Positions 3,516 through 18,272 of a DNA stretch of 20,318 bases are shown one piece after another. The first letter of the stretch is position 1, and each line of letters starts with the position of its first letter. The stretch is from a virus. Under the pieces are notes generated by a model. It searched no databases. It was not told the DNA's origin and saw only the letters and a list, made by a program, of their open reading frames with translations. The DNA lies in IMG/VR virus record IMGVR_UViG_3300006484_000076, positions 1 through 20,318 of that record; one strand, 5' to 3'. Both the position numbers and the translations under genes were made by a program.

Positions 3516-3580
3516 AATGTACTTGTGCATCTATTTGCATTGCTTTATTGCTGGTTTTATCAGACCCAAGGAGATTTAAA

Positions 3581-3781
3581 ATGGTTGATAAAAGAGTATT
3601 AATTAATTTTAGCGAGCAGCAATATGATGCTGTGGCAAAGGCTGCGCATAAATCTGCATTGCCTTTCAGTTCGTTTGTTCGCATGGCTTCATATATGGAA
3701 GCAACTAAAGCTGGCGTGGAAGTTGCAAAGCCAGACAATGAGGCTGAAGCTGAAATAATTGCGTCGGATATTGTAGAATGA
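3581..3781 (+). CDS. Ribbon-helix-helix DNA-binding protein
   Basis: A 66-residue protein with the Arc/CopG-like plan: a short N-terminal strand (R-V-L-I-N-F, residues 5-10), helix one (S-E-Q-Q-Y-D-A-V-A-K-A-A, about 11-22), a turn, and helix two (F-S-S-F-V-R-M-A-S-Y-M-E, about 29-40), then an acidic tail. Such proteins dimerise and put the paired strands into the major groove. AAGGAG seven bases before the ATG at 3581 fixes this start rather than an upstream in-frame codon at 3548. The stop overlaps the resolvase ATG as ATGA. As first gene of the rightward replication operon, facing the leftward promoter across a repeat-bearing gap, it is the natural candidate for the local switch or autorepressor. 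Confidence 0.75.
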   Translation: MVDKRVLINFSEQQYDAVAKAAHKSALPFSSFVRMASYMEATKAGVEVAKPDNEAEAEIIASDIVE

Positions 3782-5050: not shown

Positions 5051-5845
5051 ATGCAGATAATACCAAGTGAAGAACTATCGAATAAGGCATACCACGAAAT
5101 GCCTGCAATATCGTCAAGCGCGGTGAAGACAGTCGCAACGTCATCGCTGTACCACTGGAAGAACACTACGTTCAATTCCACGCCAGCTATGATTCTTGGC
5201 TCGGCATTTCATGCGATGATGCTAGAACCAGAGAAGAACCTTGTGCATGATTCAGGTTTATCACGTCGTGGCAGCAAGGCTTGGAAGGAACAGGAAGAGT
5301 TCTTAACTGAAGACGAGATACTACTTCCAAGTGGTGAGTACGAACAGTGCAAGAAAATGGTTGATGGTTGCTTGCAAAATAAAATGGCGAAAAATTTATT
5401 GACCAACAAAGACATGCTTGCTGAATACAGCTTCATCGCAGAATGTTCCGAAACGGGGCTTGAGCTTAAATGCCGCCCGGATGGATTGTTAAAAGAGGCA
5501 GGCATTGTGATTGATCTGAAGTCTTGTTTGGATGCATCGCAGCGTGGCTTTGATAAGTCGGTGCGTAATTATAGATATGATTTGCAGGCGTGCTTCTATC
5601 GATATGTATTAAAGTTATGCGGTTATGAAACTACAAATTTTATTTTTATCGCAACTGAGAAGAACAGCTATGCCACAGCTTGCTATGAATTATCAGATAA
5701 ATATAACAAGTATGCCGAAGATGAGATGTTTAAAACATTGCGTAAAATTAAAGTGGCACAAGATACAAACACGTTTGATACCGGGTGGCCTGAACTTGAA
5801 ACATTACATTTGCCAGCTTATCTCGACGAAAATCACGGCTTATGA
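5051..5845 (+). CDS. RecE-like PD-(D/E)XK exonuclease
   Basis: The 264-residue protein matches the C-terminal nuclease of exonuclease VIII (RecE) in order and spacing: G-S-A-F-H-A-M-M-L at 50-58 (H54), E125 in L-A-E-Y-S-F, C-R-P-D-G-L at 141-146 (D144), V-I-D-L-K-S at 153-158 (D155, K157) and Y-D-L-Q-A at 176-180 (Q179). These are the metal-binding and catalytic residues of the PD-(D/E)XK fold. The enzyme would resect double-stranded ends 5' to 3' for recombination or concatemer formation. GGAG precedes the ATG. It is followed by the SSB gene; no recognisable RecT/Beta annealase lies in the window, so the SSB-like protein may be its partner. Confidence 0.85.
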   Translation: MQIIPSEELSNKAYHEMPAISSSAVKTVATSSLYHWKNTTFNSTPAMILGSAFHAMMLEPEKNLVHDSGLSRRGSKAWKEQEEFLTEDEILLPSGEYEQCKKMVDGCLQNKMAKNLLTNKDMLAEYSFIAECSETGLELKCRPDGLLKEAGIVIDLKSCLDASQRGFDKSVRNYRYDLQACFYRYVLKLCGYETTNFIFIATEKNSYATACYELSDKYNKYAEDEMFKTLRKIKVAQDTNTFDTGWPELETLHLPAYLDENHGL

Positions 5846-5854
5846 GAAATCCCA

Positions 5855-5871
5855 GTGCAGGGGTGCTGCAC
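5855..5871 (+). other. Short hairpin between exonuclease and SSB genes
   Basis: GTGCAG (5855-5860) and CTGCAC (5866-5871) form a perfect 6-bp stem with a GGGTG loop in the 46-base gap, about 10 bases before the SSB ribosome-binding site AAAGGAG. No U-tract follows, so this is more likely an mRNA processing or stability element than a terminator. Confidence 0.35.
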
Positions 5872-5891
5872 ACATTTAAAGGAGTTGTAAA

Positions 5892-6539
5892 ATGCAACAC
5901 ATAATAAGCGGCGTGAAAGCGCTATACCCAAGACTAAATGCTACTTACAGGTTTGATCAGGAAGAATATAAGAGCCAAAAATGCTCGCCTGATGCCGAGG
6001 GTGCAGCCTACGAAATGTCATTTAATTTGACAGGTGAGCAATGTAAGGAGCTGAACGCCATTTGTATGCAGGCATATAAAAATGCGGCGGCAATGGATGC
6101 TAACAGCAAACGCAAGTGGCCTGAACAGCCACTAAGCTTGCCTTACAAGCGAGATGACGCGAAGCAAGGTGATTGGATTGGAAAGGCTAAGTTAAAAGGC
6201 GCATATTCAGGCGAAGTTACGAATCCGCCACGCCAAGTAGATGCATCACGAAAGAAGCTGCCAGAAGGCTTTGAGCTTACTACTGGTTCTACTGTGAATA
6301 TCGCATGCACTGTAGTGCCATATAATACGGGAACGCTCAATGGAGTCTCATTAAGATTACGTGCAGTGCAGGTGTTAGAGTTAGCTGAAAAACAAGAGGC
6401 AGATGACCCGTTCACTGAAGTGTCTGGCGGATACTCTGGCGGCGCTTCACCTGTTAATGGTGTTGAGCATGACCCATTTGGATTGCCACCAGCTACGCCA
6501 ACAGCGTCAAATGATCTGGAAGATGACATTCCATTTTAA
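5892..6539 (+). CDS. ssb: Single-stranded DNA-binding protein (phage OB-fold type)
   Basis: The 215-residue product has a beta-rich body (about residues 1-170) containing basic and aromatic residues and the segment K-A-K-L-K-G-A-Y-S-G. A Gly/Pro/Ser-rich linker follows (about 175-205), then the acidic tip D-L-E-D-D-I-P-F. That last motif is nearly identical to the C-terminal tip of bacterial SSB, which recruits replication and repair proteins. The body resembles phage DUF2815/gp2.5-like SSBs rather than E. coli SSB. It would coat ssDNA behind the RecE-like nuclease and ahead of the primase-helicase. AAAGGAG precedes the ATG at 5892. An annealing activity, as in T7 gp2.5, is possible but not shown by sequence alone. 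Confidence 0.8.
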   Translation: MQHIISGVKALYPRLNATYRFDQEEYKSQKCSPDAEGAAYEMSFNLTGEQCKELNAICMQAYKNAAAMDANSKRKWPEQPLSLPYKRDDAKQGDWIGKAKLKGAYSGEVTNPPRQVDASRKKLPEGFELTTGSTVNIACTVVPYNTGTLNGVSLRLRAVQVLELAEKQEADDPFTEVSGGYSGGASPVNGVEHDPFGLPPATPTASNDLEDDIPF

Positions 6540-7141: not shown

Positions 7142-9022
7142 ATGCAAAATACGAAATTTCCAAATGCAAGCTGGGATAGATACTCAGATAAAATTATAAG
7201 CGCACTATCATTGAAAAAGACGGCTATAGGTGAATATCATGGTGCTTGCCCGGTATGTCAGGGTGAAGATAGGTTTTGGATAAAGGAAACTGCTGAAAGT
7301 GAAGTCATGGTTAGCTGTCGTAAATGCTCAGATTTTGCCGGCATAAAAGATGCGCTGCGAAGGCAGAGGTTATGGCCTGACGAGAATGAGAAGCCTTTGA
7401 CAAAAGAATACAACATAAGTTGGCCTGAACCAGAGGCAGAAGCCACGCATCCATACTTGGTTAAGAAAAAGATTGGGCTTGGCAATGCATCTATAAAGGG
7501 TGACATATTGGTTATCCCTGTCATTAATGCCAAAGGTAAGCGTGTAGGCACGCAGAACATTAATCCGACAGGCGCAAAGAAATTTTCCACTGGTATGCCT
7601 GTCGTTGGTAATTTTAGCGTGATTGGCGGCAAATTAGACGATCTTGTTTACATATGTGAAGGGTGGGCAACTGCAATGTCGTGCCATATGGCGACGGGTA
7701 GGCCAGCAGTATTTGCATTATCTGCGGGCAATATGACTGCTGTGATAGGTGAGCTGCTAGAGGCACGCCCTAATCTGCGCTTAATTGTTGCGGGTGATAA
7801 TGACGAGGCAGGCCTAAAGGCCATAGAAAAATGCGTGGCTGATCATGGCGTGCAATCAATTGTGCCTGAGATTGGCGGCTGGGACTTCTCTGATATATGG
7901 ATTAATCAGGGCAAAGAGGCGACTGCCAAGGCATTAGAAGTGAAAAGCTTGTTAGATCAGGTGTTCTTTCCGGGTGACGCAGTACCACAGCTAGACAGGA
8001 GTTATCTTGTTAAGGGTTGGTTTGGCGCTGGGCAGCTATCAATGGTATATGGGCCAAGCAACGTGGGTAAGTCATTCTTTGTGCAAGATGTGGCTTGGCA
8101 TGTATCTGCGGGGCAAGATTGGCATGGAAACAAGGTGAAGGGCGGTGTGGTGCTGTTTTTAGCTCTTGAGGGCGGTATGACAACACATAATAGGATTGTG
8201 GCCTTACGCCAGCAATATCCAGAGCATGAGGCTAAATTAGCTATGCGTGCATTGCCAGTAAATTTACTTGAGGAAAACGCTGACGTGCAGCTTATCATTG
8301 ATTTGTGCGAAGAGGTGAAGCGTGCGCACGGCGATATTGCAATGATTATCGTTGATACGCTGTCGAGATCAATGCCGGGCGGCGATGAGAACTCGCCTGC
8401 ATCTTCAACGGCTGTTATATCTGCGTGTGATAAGATACGCGGCGAGACAGGCGCTCATTTGTTGCTTGTGCATCACTCTGGCAAGAACTTAGACGCAAAG
8501 GCTCGCGGGCATAGCTCACTGAGAGCTGCTGTAGAGACTGAGATAGAGCTATCATATGACGAGGCGACAGGCTTGCGCACTGCGTTATCCACCAAGCAGA
8601 GAGATTTAGAGGGTGGTCGTAAGTTTCACTTTAAGTTGAATGTCATTGAGCTTGGGCATGACGCCGACGGCGATCCAGTGACAACGTGCGTGATTGTGCC
8701 TGCAAGCAGTGATGATGTTGAGAAGGCCAACAAGAAAGCTATTAAGGGCAAGAATCAGATATTATTTAAGACATGCTTCCAGCAGCTAAGAGGCGAGGGC
8801 ATAGGAATGTCAAACCCTGCTGGCGTGGGTTGGCCTGAACCCAGCACGTTCTGGGTGATTAAAGAGGAGGATATTAAGAAGCATTTCATGGGCAAAGTAT
8901 CTGGCGTCGCCAACCCATCACAAACCTACAAGCAGTCAATTGCAGGCCTCACGAGTGCGGGTCATATTGTGCAAAATGAGGGCTATATATGGTTTTGCGA
9001 TGATTTCGGGAAAGTGAGCTAA
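7142..9022 (+). CDS. Primase-helicase (zinc ribbon, TOPRIM, RecA-like ATPase)
   Basis: The 626-residue protein has three parts in order. A zinc ribbon carries C36/C39 and C59/C62 with G-E-D-R-F-W between. A TOPRIM primase core has C-E-G-W-A-T-A (E173) and A-G-D-N-D-E-A-G (D219, D221). A RecA-like ATPase (AAA_25-type) has Walker A G-P-S-N-V-G-K-S (304-311), Walker B M-I-I-V-D-T-L (D405) and V-H-H-S-G-K (443-448). It should prime and unwind DNA at the phage fork. AGGAAGG precedes the ATG at 7142. No DNA polymerase gene is in the window, so it would load either a polymerase encoded elsewhere or the host's. The C-terminal 130 residues look like an added accessory domain. The TACTAAT repeat cluster begins eight bases after its stop. 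Confidence 0.88.
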   Translation: MQNTKFPNASWDRYSDKIISALSLKKTAIGEYHGACPVCQGEDRFWIKETAESEVMVSCRKCSDFAGIKDALRRQRLWPDENEKPLTKEYNISWPEPEAEATHPYLVKKKIGLGNASIKGDILVIPVINAKGKRVGTQNINPTGAKKFSTGMPVVGNFSVIGGKLDDLVYICEGWATAMSCHMATGRPAVFALSAGNMTAVIGELLEARPNLRLIVAGDNDEAGLKAIEKCVADHGVQSIVPEIGGWDFSDIWINQGKEATAKALEVKSLLDQVFFPGDAVPQLDRSYLVKGWFGAGQLSMVYGPSNVGKSFFVQDVAWHVSAGQDWHGNKVKGGVVLFLALEGGMTTHNRIVALRQQYPEHEAKLAMRALPVNLLEENADVQLIIDLCEEVKRAHGDIAMIIVDTLSRSMPGGDENSPASSTAVISACDKIRGETGAHLLLVHHSGKNLDAKARGHSSLRAAVETEIELSYDEATGLRTALSTKQRDLEGGRKFHFKLNVIELGHDADGDPVTTCVIVPASSDDVEKANKKAIKGKNQILFKTCFQQLRGEGIGMSNPAGVGWPEPSTFWVIKEEDIKKHFMGKVSGVANPSQTYKQSIAGLTSAGHIVQNEGYIWFCDDFGKVS

Positions 9023-9029
9023 AATGCAA

Positions 9030-9163
9030 CCTACTAATCACCTACTAATTAGCATTAGTAACAACAATATCAATGACTTAGCCAACCAACTACTAATTGC
9101 AATTAGTATATCGTAACCAATCTACTACTAATACTATATACCTTTAGGTATAGTATATTAGTA
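9030..9163. repeat. TACTAAT/ATTAGTA dyad cluster (origin or operator candidate)
   Basis: The heptamer TACTAAT occurs four times (9032, 9043, 9091, 9126) and its complement ATTAGTA three times (9054, 9102, 9157). Two inverted pairs share the same layout, heptamer-N4-heptamer: TACTAATTAGCATTAGTA (9043-9060) and TACTAATTGCAATTAGTA (9091-9108, a perfect 18-bp palindrome). The third pair (9126-9132 with 9157-9163) flanks an inner stem TATACC/GGTATA (9137-9142, 9147-9152) with loop TTTA. Starts at 9032, 9043 and 9054 are 11 bp apart, as are 9091 and 9102. The region is AT-rich and follows the primase-helicase gene, so an iteron-type replication origin or a multi-site operator is likely. Confidence 0.7.
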
Positions 9164-9211
9164 TGTAGTTAAGCGAATAGTATGAGATAGGTAAAATCGG
9201 GGTTAAAAATT

Positions 9212-9577
9212 ATGGAGCAAGAGATGAAGAAAAAGATAAACATTAGAACGGCTGGCGGCAAGACCGAGGCAAGCGAGGGCGAAGTGGATCGAGCGATGGT
9301 TGGACGGGGTAAGTCGAGGTCTGAGGTATTGGACACGGCTGATCTTTTGATTAACGGGGATAGGGCGAGGCAGTATGGAAGTGCTGCGGAAAACTTCACG
9401 ACAATTGCTCGCATGTGGAGCGCGTATCTTGGCAGGGATGTAGCTGCATCTGACGTGGCGAACATGATGGCGTTGCTGAAGATTGCGAGGCTGCGCAATG
9501 GTGTGCATGAGGATAGCAGCATTGATGGGTGCGGCTATCTTGCGCTGGCTCACGAGTTAGCAAATGAGGTTGGATAG
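9212..9577 (+). CDS. DUF6378-like phage protein
   Basis: The 121-residue protein contains a pattern I recognise from the DUF6378 phage family: D-T-A-D-L-L-I-N-G-D-R-A, Q-Y-G-S-A-A-E-N-F, then a helix with M-W-S-A-Y-L-G and M-M-A-L-L-K-I-A-R-L-R-N-G, ending near D-G-C-G-Y-L-A-L-A-H-E-L. The fold looks all-helical. Biochemical function is unknown to me. The ATG at 9212 has GGGG nine bases upstream; an in-frame ATG at 9224 has GGAG six bases upstream and may be the true start, removing four residues. The N-terminal 40 residues are charged and probably disordered. It lies directly after the dyad cluster and would be controlled by it if the cluster is an operator. Confidence 0.75.
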   Translation: MEQEMKKKINIRTAGGKTEASEGEVDRAMVGRGKSRSEVLDTADLLINGDRARQYGSAAENFTTIARMWSAYLGRDVAASDVANMMALLKIARLRNGVHEDSSIDGCGYLALAHELANEVG

Positions 9578-15308: not shown

Positions 15309-18272
15309 ATGGCTGATACTACAACAACGACATATAGCTTAGTGAAGCCAGAAGTTGGCGCGTCTGAAGATACTTGGGGTACAAAGATAAACACTAACTT
15401 AGATAATATTGATAACCTGCTAGACGGGACAACACCTGTCACGGGCATTGATATTAACTCTGGTACGATTGATGGTATTACCTCATTTAGCATGGCAAGT
15501 GGCAACGCTACCTTTGCGGACAACTCAAAAGCCATATTCGGTGCTGGGTCTGACCTACAGATTTACCACGATGGGACTAGCAACTCCTCTTACATTAAAG
15601 AAACTGGTGCGGGTAGTTTTAATATTGAAGCAACGAATTTATTTTTAAAACGTGAAGGTGGAACAGAAAGTTTTATTGATTGCATTACTAATGGAGCTGT
15701 GACTGCTTATTACAACGGCGCACCCAAACTATCCACAACATCAACAGGCATTGACGTAACAGGCACAGTGACCAGCGATGGTCTGACTGTGGATGGTGTT
15801 GCAAAAGTGCTTGGAACAGCGGGCAACACTTTTATAATTGCGGACGCTACTGAGACAAACGGTTATCAGCTAAAAGCTAATACAAGTGCTTCTGATGATT
15901 ATGGCTTTTTAATAGAAAACCTAGCAGGGAAAGACCTTTTTAGAGTTGAAAGTAACAACGACATCAGCTTCTACGAGGACACAGGTACAACTGCTAAGTT
16001 CTTCTGGGATGCTAGCGCTGAGAGCTTGGGGATTGGTACGGCGTCTCCTAGTGCGCCAATACAAGTTGTCTCAGCATCAGGGTCAATACCTGCACTAGGT
16101 GCGGCTTCGTCTCACGTTGCTATCGGTTCTAGTGGTTTTGGTACGATGATAGGAACTAAAAGCACAGGCGTTGGCTACATCCAACAACAACGGTTTGACG
16201 GTACAGCAACTGCTTATGACCTTTCGTTGCAACCTAACGGTGGCAATGTTGGTATTGGTACAGATTCTCCGAGTACATATAGCGGTGCATTGGTTGTTGC
16301 TGACGGTACTGCTGGAGGCACAACGCATGTCACCGTTACAAATAATAATGCGAATCAATTTCTTAAACTGGGTGTATCTGGTGATTTGGCGCAAATCGGC
16401 TATGATGATGGAGACGGCATAGCTTTTGGTCAGTTTACAAACTCAACTGGCACTTCGTTTTCCTCAGAAGCCATGCGCATCGACTCGTCAGGCAAAGTTG
16501 GTATTGGTACGAGTTCGCCTAGTGCTACGATTGATGTAGTTTCGTCAGGTACTAACAGTCAGAATCTTGCAGAGTTTTCTAGTGCTAGTGGGTTACGAGC
16601 TAAAATAGCTAGTGATGGTACTGATGACGGCTATATGTATTTGTATAATGCCAGCAATGCTAACACTGTTTCGTTCCGCACTGATGGTAATAATAGCTTT
16701 ATAAATGGTGGTGGTAATTTTGGTATTGGTACGAGTTCGCCAGCTACAGGTTTAGATGTTGCAACTAGTAATTATACTTATGGCGGCACAACTTATGATA
16801 TTTACGGAATTATAGGTTTAACAAGTGGTGGTGTACGCTTGGGAGGCGATAGCAGTAATTCTGATTCTGTTATAGGCACTACTGGCACAGGCGATATGCA
16901 GTTCGTTACCTACAATGGTTCTGCATGGGGAAGCCGAATGACGTTGGATAACACAGGCAATGTTGGTATTGGTACGAGTTCTCCTAGTTCTAAAATTGAT
17001 ATTGGTACTACTGACTCAACATTGTATTCAGCTAGTTCTTCCACTGGACAAGCTGGAATTGGGGCAACTCTTCAGCTTACAAATTTAGCAACACAAGGTA
17101 ATGCTGTATCTCAAATATTGTTCAAGATGAATAATGAGCGAGTCATAAATAGAATTGTGTCTAGCTATACAACAACTGCTGATGGGTATCTGGCTTTTGT
17201 AACGGAAGGTGCAGGAACTCCAGCAGAACGCATGCGAATCGACTCATCAGGTAACGTTGGTATTGGGACGAGTTCTATTGATCTCACCTCATCAGGAAGG
17301 ACTGTTGTGCAAGTTGAGGGTAGCAGTAACGCCCTGTTGAGCCTTACGGATGGCACTAGCCGACTCTATTTGCATCAAAAAGGTGGAACTTCTGGGGTTG
17401 ACATCTGGAACAGCGCAAATAGTTATATGCGTTTTGCAACAAACAACTCAGAAGCCATGCGCATCGACTCATCAGGCAACGTGTTGGTGGGTACTTCTGT
17501 GGTCAATCTACACAGCTCATCTACTGAATCAGGCGCAAGACTGTATGATGGCGGCATTGTTACAGCGGGTGCAGGTACTGTTGCATATTTTAATAGGAAT
17601 GGTGCTGGCGGGGACGGCACTATCATTGACCTCCGCAAAGACGGCGCATCTGTAGGTAGTATTGGGAACTCTGGCGGTGCTATCTATGTTTCTGCACCTT
17701 CTGCTGGTGGCTTGAAGTATACTTATCAGAACGGCACAAATGCCGCTATTCAGCCATGTACTACGACAGGAGTCGCAGTCGATGGGACACACGTCCTTGG
17801 TACATCAGGCGCTCGCTTCAAAGACCTATACCTATCAGGCGGTGTCTACCTCGGCGGCATTGGGTCGGCAAATGCGCTGGACGATTATGAGGAAGTAACC
17901 TTTACTGCAACTTTAAGAGGAAGTGGTTCTGAACCAAGTACGAAAACTACCACGGCAGCTAAAGCTACAAAGATTGGTCGTCTTGTTCATTATGCTATTG
18001 GCTTCGAGAATGTTAGCACCGCATCATATTCAGGACATTTAACAGTAGACGGTCTTCCTTATACTAACACTGGGCCAAGGGCGCAAGGAAACATCACAGG
18101 CTATAATCTGCTATCTTTTTCTGGGACGCAAGTATTTGCTAATATAGGGGCTTCCCAAACGAAAGTTGAAGCAATGACTATTTCCTCATCAGGCCCGTGG
18201 AGTCTTGGTAACCACGATGCTAGATCCTCTGGTGCATATTTATGGATTACTGGAACTTACATTACATCATAA
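15309..18272 (+). CDS. Large tail fibre protein with GIGTSSP repeats
   Basis: The 987-residue protein starts with the fibre-type module [20 protein letters not shown], followed by [15 protein letters not shown]. It then carries about seven spaced copies of a motif like [16 protein letters not shown] (near residues 240, 314, 397, 471, 552, 650 and 725). The C-terminal part (from about 855, A-L-D-D-Y-E-E) resembles beta-sandwich tips found on marine phage fibres. I see no peptidase_S74 chaperone signature, so the fibre either folds unaided or uses a separate chaperone. AGGAG precedes the ATG. It should form the trimeric receptor-binding fibre and so set host range. Confidence 0.88.
16249..17269 (+). 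repeat. Dispersed nucleotide repeats inside the tail fibre gene
   Basis: TTGGTATTGGTAC recurs at 16249, 16498, 16720 and 16963, with a one-base variant at 17257; three copies (16498, 16720, 16963) continue into ACGAGTTC. A second word, GCCATGCGCATCGACTC, occurs before 16488 and again at 17454-17470. The copies match at nucleotide level and encode the GIGTSSP units. Confidence 0.7.

Follow-up and report, generated by a model that had tools for sequence, protein, structure and literature searches.

A heptamer array beside a phage primase-helicase gene: a probable replication origin and its apparent exchange together with the helicase C-terminal domain

The window analysed here is one strand of positions 1-20,318 of IMG/VR record IMGVR_UViG_3300006484_000076. 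In it seven exact copies of the heptamer TACTAAT crowd into the 189-bp gap that separates a primase-helicase gene from a gene for a DUF6378 protein (9212-9577, 121 aa, which also matches PHROG families labelled phosphofructokinase, a name that is doubtful for so short a protein). What is this array for, and which protein reads it? A first-pass annotation had offered a replication origin, a multi-site operator or the control region of the DUF6378-like gene. Comparison with homologous loci leads us to conclude that window positions 9023-9211 are very probably a phage replication origin, and that the primase-helicase encoded just upstream would be its initiator.

The heptamer array and its word alleles

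The seven copies are all present (Table 1) with start-to-start spacings of 11, 11, 37, 11, 24 and 31 bp, in which the 11-bp phasing inside the clusters is evident, and the two heptamer-N4-inverted heptamer pairs of identical layout (heptamers 2/3 and 4/5) and the third inverted pair (heptamers 6/7, 24 bp apart) are as the first-pass annotation had described them. One further TACTAAT occurs in the whole window, at 15686. The most frequent 7-mer in the 280 bp past the helicase stop has seven copies there and at most four in 60 dinucleotide shuffles; this cluster is the densest 7-mer repeat, and other windows within the 20 kb never exceed seven copies. The stretch 9031-9162 is 29% GC and among the most AT-rich parts of the window; in seven relatives of full or nearly full length the array is similarly AT-rich, and each of seven near-complete relatives has a single cluster.

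Table 1. Positions in the window of the genes, domains and sites discussed in the text
Feature	Position	Strand	Basis
Primase-helicase	7142..9022	+	Pfam, PHROGs, PDB relative RSF1010 RepA
C-terminal domain coding region (residues 538-626), putative origin-recognition domain	8753..9019	+	Allele-separating columns, tree, AF2 model
Predicted recognition helix (residues 592-605), PSQTYKQSIAGLTS	8915..8956	+	AF2 secondary structure; alignment
Whole intergenic array, putative replication origin	9023..9211	+	AT-richness; allele differentiation
Heptamer 1, TACTAAT	9032..9038	+	Position retained in all alleles
Heptamer 2, TACTAAT	9043..9049	+	Retained in 3 of 4 alleles, lost in L040/L048 type
Heptamer 3, inverted	9054..9060	-	Exact match; cross-allele alignment
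IHF-consensus site TATCAATGACTTA (WATCAANNNNTTR), between clusters 1 and 2	9068..9080	+	Exact match
Heptamer 4, TACTAAT	9091..9097	+	Exact match; cross-allele alignment
Heptamer 5, inverted	9102..9108	-	Exact match; cross-allele alignment
Heptamer 6, TACTAAT, left arm of terminal dyad	9126..9132	+	Exact match; cross-allele alignment
Palindrome TATACCTTTAGGTATA, centre of terminal dyad 9122-9168	9137..9152	.	Array alignments
Heptamer 7, inverted, right arm of terminal dyad	9157..9163	-	Exact match; cross-allele alignment

Homologous gaps were collected from related viral contigs and aligned. Among the 18 distinct gaps of the TACTAAT type none of the 49 heptamer columns varies, against 20 of 90 spacer columns (Fisher p 8.5e-5). 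Other relatives have TATTAAT or TAATAAT at nearly all sites with positions and layout unchanged. The annotation had counted the lack of the heptamer and its layout in relatives with the same flanking genes as evidence against its reading, and such relatives do exist in the literal sense that TACTAAT is gone, but they keep the same layout under another word. The third base of the word differs between alleles at about ten sites together, including the degenerate copies in the terminal dyad (TACTA at 9123, TACTATA at 9132 and TATAGTA at 9149), which switch in step with the heptamers; the recognised unit is probably TA[C/A/T]TA(AT). Departures from this concerted change are few: the L040/L048 type is without one copy, and in TATTAAT phages dyads 2 and 3 contain variants, TATTATT among them.

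A 30-codon frame does cross part of the array (9024-9116), but we rejected it as a coding signal: its ATG is absent in 5 of 29 distinct gaps, its length ranges from 30 to 44 codons and its peptide varies with the heptamer allele. At the protein level the frame is not conserved. In IMG/VR all 34 of 34 matches to the first three sites of the TACTAAT cluster abut the end of a primase-helicase gene, so the array was not found there on satellites without the helicase; four extra matches to the TATTAAT pattern, which lie in AT-rich DNA where no relative of the helicase could be detected, we read as chance. One 61,867-base contig (IMGVR_UViG_3300025570_000015; loci L015 and L057) carries two copies of the locus, TACTAAT at about 58.4 kb and TATTAAT at about 22.2 kb, and assembly has probably fused two phage genomes in it. 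On FZLS01000179.1 (L286), a 4-kb contig assigned to a Rhodobacteraceae metagenome bin, an 86% identical primase-helicase and a TACTAAT array are present, a hint at a Rhodobacteraceae host group that is in line with the Roseobacter-phage relatives described below.

Other signals in the gap were also sought. The fixed part of the IHF-type site is kept in nearly all alleles and its N4 part varies; the IHF consensus is enriched, at 40 of 102 arrays; among control windows it is found in 41 of 1898, and among AT-rich ones in 32 of 585. The 102 arrays are not independent, and the window's own family supplies much of the count. From the match to the consensus we infer that IHF may bind at 9068-9080. 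Past the array, close to where the allele-specific DNA ends on the right (below), nearly all alleles have a conserved block, GTAAAATCGGGGTTAA (9190-9206), which could be recombination homology or a translation or promoter signal of DUF6378. The array has no Rfam match, no terminator or promoter was found, and a search of 8900-9400 for sigma-70-like promoters found none. The GC-skew minimum that had been suggested as a check was not seen at the array; skew is monotone in all of the genomes and so uninformative.

The C-terminal domain and its exchange with the array

The primase-helicase contains a Zn-ribbon (residues 31-63), a Toprim domain (169-259) and a RepA/AAA_25 helicase domain (274-449), with Pfam matches to PF08273 Zn_Ribbon_Prim, Toprim and AAA_25 (E 3e-37) and none to D5 or DUF927, and a PDB sequence search relates the helicase domain to RSF1010 RepA (1g8y, E 2.4e-6 over residues 294-456). 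Its C-terminal part, at about residues 538-626, is a winged-helix-like domain: this domain finds no meaningful match among PDB chains by sequence, but its AlphaFold2 model has the helix-strand-helix-helix-strand-strand order of a winged helix (pLDDT 78; the full-length model, pLDDT 45, was set aside as too poor). The best Foldseek matches of the domain model in the PDB are winged helices of the CRP family (weak E of 0.019, probability 0.98), and P4 1KA8 is absent among the 50 matches listed.

In a comparison of 38 distinct primase-helicases, 13 alignment columns have no residue common to TACTAAT and TATTAAT phages and all 13 lie at residues 538-626, while over residues 1-520 identity within and between types is nearly equal and shows no association with the word. 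DNA differentiation between alleles is confined to 8699-9236, with background levels on both sides that mark the borders of the module; the primase-helicase gene contributes its 3' end to the feature. Trees were built from 45 distinct segments, with the first 1560 nt of the gene as its N part, and the word needs 12 changes on the N-part tree, 12 on the DUF6378 tree and only 3, the fewest possible, on the C-terminal domain tree; monophyly of the word types is rejected by AU tests for both flanks. Because the word changes so much less often on the domain tree than on either flank, the C-terminal domain and the array appear to have been swapped together several times, both flanks moving freely. 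The idea that the array is the control region of the DUF6378 gene gained no support from these trees, on which DUF6378 is as uncoupled from the word as the N part of the helicase, nor from the search for a sigma-70-like promoter.

Does the domain then read the sites, or does it only hitch-hike next door while something else does the reading, be it the ribbon-helix-helix protein, a small winged-helix protein or a factor of the host? The domain physically adjoins the array, and ribbon-helix-helix proteins do bind short repeats. Physical linkage of domain and array contributes to the association. Adjacency alone, however, would tie DUF6378, which begins 49 bp from the last heptamer, to the word just as tightly, and that equally near flank is uncoupled. 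Among the other shared genes none was seen to follow the allele. The candidate ribbon-helix-helix protein itself (3548-3781, a small protein so classed by eye, without a Pfam match, which starts the rightward gene block) was rejected as the reader since its sequence does not track the allele: between the TACTAAT window phage and the TATTAAT phage G002 it is 97% identical, and against another TATTAAT phage, G006, 67%.

The residues that do track the word, moreover, lie in the predicted recognition helix, at residues 594-595 (8921-8926), which are QT with TACTAAT, QI with TAATAAT and ST with TATTAAT. Two comparisons set this helix apart from general similarity of the domain. The A-type domain is 92% identical to the C-type, yet QI and TAATAAT are common to the A- and B-types, which are 84-86% identical. 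Likewise, domains that are only 47-66% identical but have SAY in common at this place also have CTACAAA in common, and the domain of phage CRP-831, 73% identical to that of CRP-811, has instead SSY and an array of GTATAAA. This is covariation seen in alignments and placed on a predicted structure, and perhaps reflects in part shared descent of word and residues, but it supports the view that the C-terminal domain sets repeat specificity. A different reader we consider very unlikely.

Arrays in cultured and distant phages

If the primase-helicase is the reader, does the same pairing hold in cultured and more distant phages? Over the first 633 aligned residues the helicases of Roseobacter phages CRP-821 and CRP-823 share 98.1% identity, and over the last 108 they share 66.7%; the former has an array of GTATAAA and the latter one of CTACAAA, and the two sequences diverge between about -377 and +200 relative to the stop codon. 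The pair is an independent replicate of the cassette swap. Their site layout, ++----++--, with spacings of 10, 46, 9, 9-10, 12, 19-20, 9, 19 and 7-8, is nearly the same under both words, and phages with GTATGAA, TGTAGAA or CGTACCA have a similar site geometry.

At least five copies of one 7-mer lie beside the helicase stop in 101 of 142 distinct sequences. Arrays of many other words are in the same place in distant phages, among them Idiomarinaceae phage 1N2-2 (CGGTACA), Alteromonas phages XX1924 and PB15 (TGGTTCA) and Rhizobium phage 16-3 (CGTGACA), and several distant arrays terminate in a palindrome whose centre is CCTNNAGG-like. Helicase relatives without such an array are those of Vibrio phage 1.210.O, Caulobacter phage GB2A, ct76p945 and some Idiomarina-like loci. 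In Rhizobium phage 16-3 (L168, 4015-4300) 11-12 CGTGACA copies and an exact IHF consensus follow gene p101, which makes this array a candidate origin in a long-studied phage. In Roseobacter phage CRP-406 (L160, 5700-5900) GCTGGAA words surround the helicase stop and are overlapped by an annotated gene, 5782-6108, whose annotation may be wrong. No descriptions of these arrays were found in the literature searched, and the paper on CRP-822-type roseophages (PMC12629253) makes no mention of origins or repeats.

These phages differ in gene order, and the position of the array is fixed to the helicase gene across them. This bears on the idea that the array is a packaging, partition or recombination site that a phage protein still binds. 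Complexes of the cos and att type also combine repeated sites with an IHF-type motif, but the partner domain here is on a primase-helicase and not on a terminase or recombinase, and the tie to the helicase gene persists despite the differing gene orders; we find such a site extremely improbable.

It also bears on the multi-site operator, by which the helicase C-terminal domain would repress transcription running into DUF6378 and the genes that follow it, or set its timing, with no origin at the site. The array is upstream of a co-oriented gene, its dyads resemble repressor sites, and arrays bound by the helicase could be autoregulatory. Against this, the array is retained where the next gene differs (CRP-831 and the phages of Alteromonas and Rhizobium are examples), DUF6378, where present, is not coupled to the allele, and 5-16 copies, an IHF-type site and AT-richness are more than an operator requires. 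The operators of phage repressors overlap promoters and lie at several loci, and here we find one cluster per genome and no promoter-like site. An immunity operator in particular is unlikely because CRP-822-type relatives are without integrase and are taken as lytic (PMC12629253). All told, an operator without an origin seems to us unlikely.

The proposed origin and known systems

The replication-origin reading, the first of those originally offered, gained from the comparisons: the array is single-copy, fixed in position and AT-rich, contains an IHF-type site and coevolves with the putative initiator domain. At the level of sequence they show conservation of the array, concerted change at nearly all of its sites, co-inheritance of domain and array, and the same anatomy in distant phages. 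A phage-borne origin is plausible also because related CRP-822-type phages have no integrase and in part no DNA polymerase (PMC12629253). How might such an origin work? Several subunits of the ring helicase would use their C-terminal winged-helix domains to bind the phased heptamers, and specificity would come from the first part of the recognition helix (residues 594-595 and neighbours), which would read base 3 of TA-N-TAAT; a host IHF-like protein would bend the DNA at 9068-9080, and the AT-rich DNA and terminal palindrome would melt or extrude. The helicase could then load itself at the opened DNA, and its own Zn-ribbon/Toprim part could prime.

This reading predicts where replication starts, and which protein reads the site, in a large group of phages, marine and other, that have no described origin in the literature searched. 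It also supplies dozens of naturally matched initiator-origin pairs whose words differ by as little as one base, makes testable the hard question of how specificity can shift jointly in an initiator and in all of its binding sites, and offers experimenters a natural swap between near-isogenic phages, the cultured CRP-821 and CRP-823. We suggest, tentatively and as rather less than an even prospect, that the cassette of C-terminal domain and array provides a large natural collection of orthogonal initiator-origin pairs, being an exchangeable unit of specificity under diversifying selection that avoids cross-talk with or hijack by co-infecting phages, satellites and origin-targeting defences; it would use a short recognition-helix code, and all of the approximately ten sites and their reader would change together by recombination rather than site by site through mutation.

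A close likeness in arrangement is to Rep of the staphylococcal pathogenicity islands (SaPI), which uses its C-terminal domain to recognise short repeats that lie just past the stop of the rep gene (PMC7581432). As in SaPI Rep/ori, and in Cch2 of SCCmec, an initiator helicase here has a short-repeat array directly 3' of its own gene, but those helicases are of the DUF927 or D5 (Primase_Cterm) type and this one is an RSF1010-RepA/AAA_25 helicase (by Pfam, AAA_25) fused to a Zn-ribbon/Toprim primase. Unlike SaPI Rep/ori, the system described here is in marine tailed phages and has many heptamer alleles exchanged as cassettes. RSF1010 has an iteron origin with 20-bp iterons, priming hairpins and three separate proteins, RepA, RepB' and RepC. 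The RepA-type hexameric helicase domain is shared with it, as the 1g8y and AAA_25 matches indicate, but here a single protein apparently does the work of all three and each repeat is 7 bp long. The alpha protein of P4 has a C-terminal winged helix that binds type I repeats, an SF3-type helicase and the primase motif EGYATA, which the EGWATA of our protein resembles. The Zn-ribbon and primase N-terminal part (PF08273 Zn_Ribbon_Prim, Toprim) is a further likeness to P4 alpha, but in place of its SF3/D5-type helicase there is AAA_25, a relative of RSF1010 RepA. According to the account of Ziegelin 1993 given in PMC8628076, P4 alpha unites primase, helicase and origin recognition in one protein. 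The RepA_N origin of PLE, satellites in Vibrio cholerae, is likewise a phage-associated iteron origin with a dedicated initiator (PMC7145576). The helicase-primase studied here most likely works like SaPI Rep and P4 alpha but belongs to neither helicase family.
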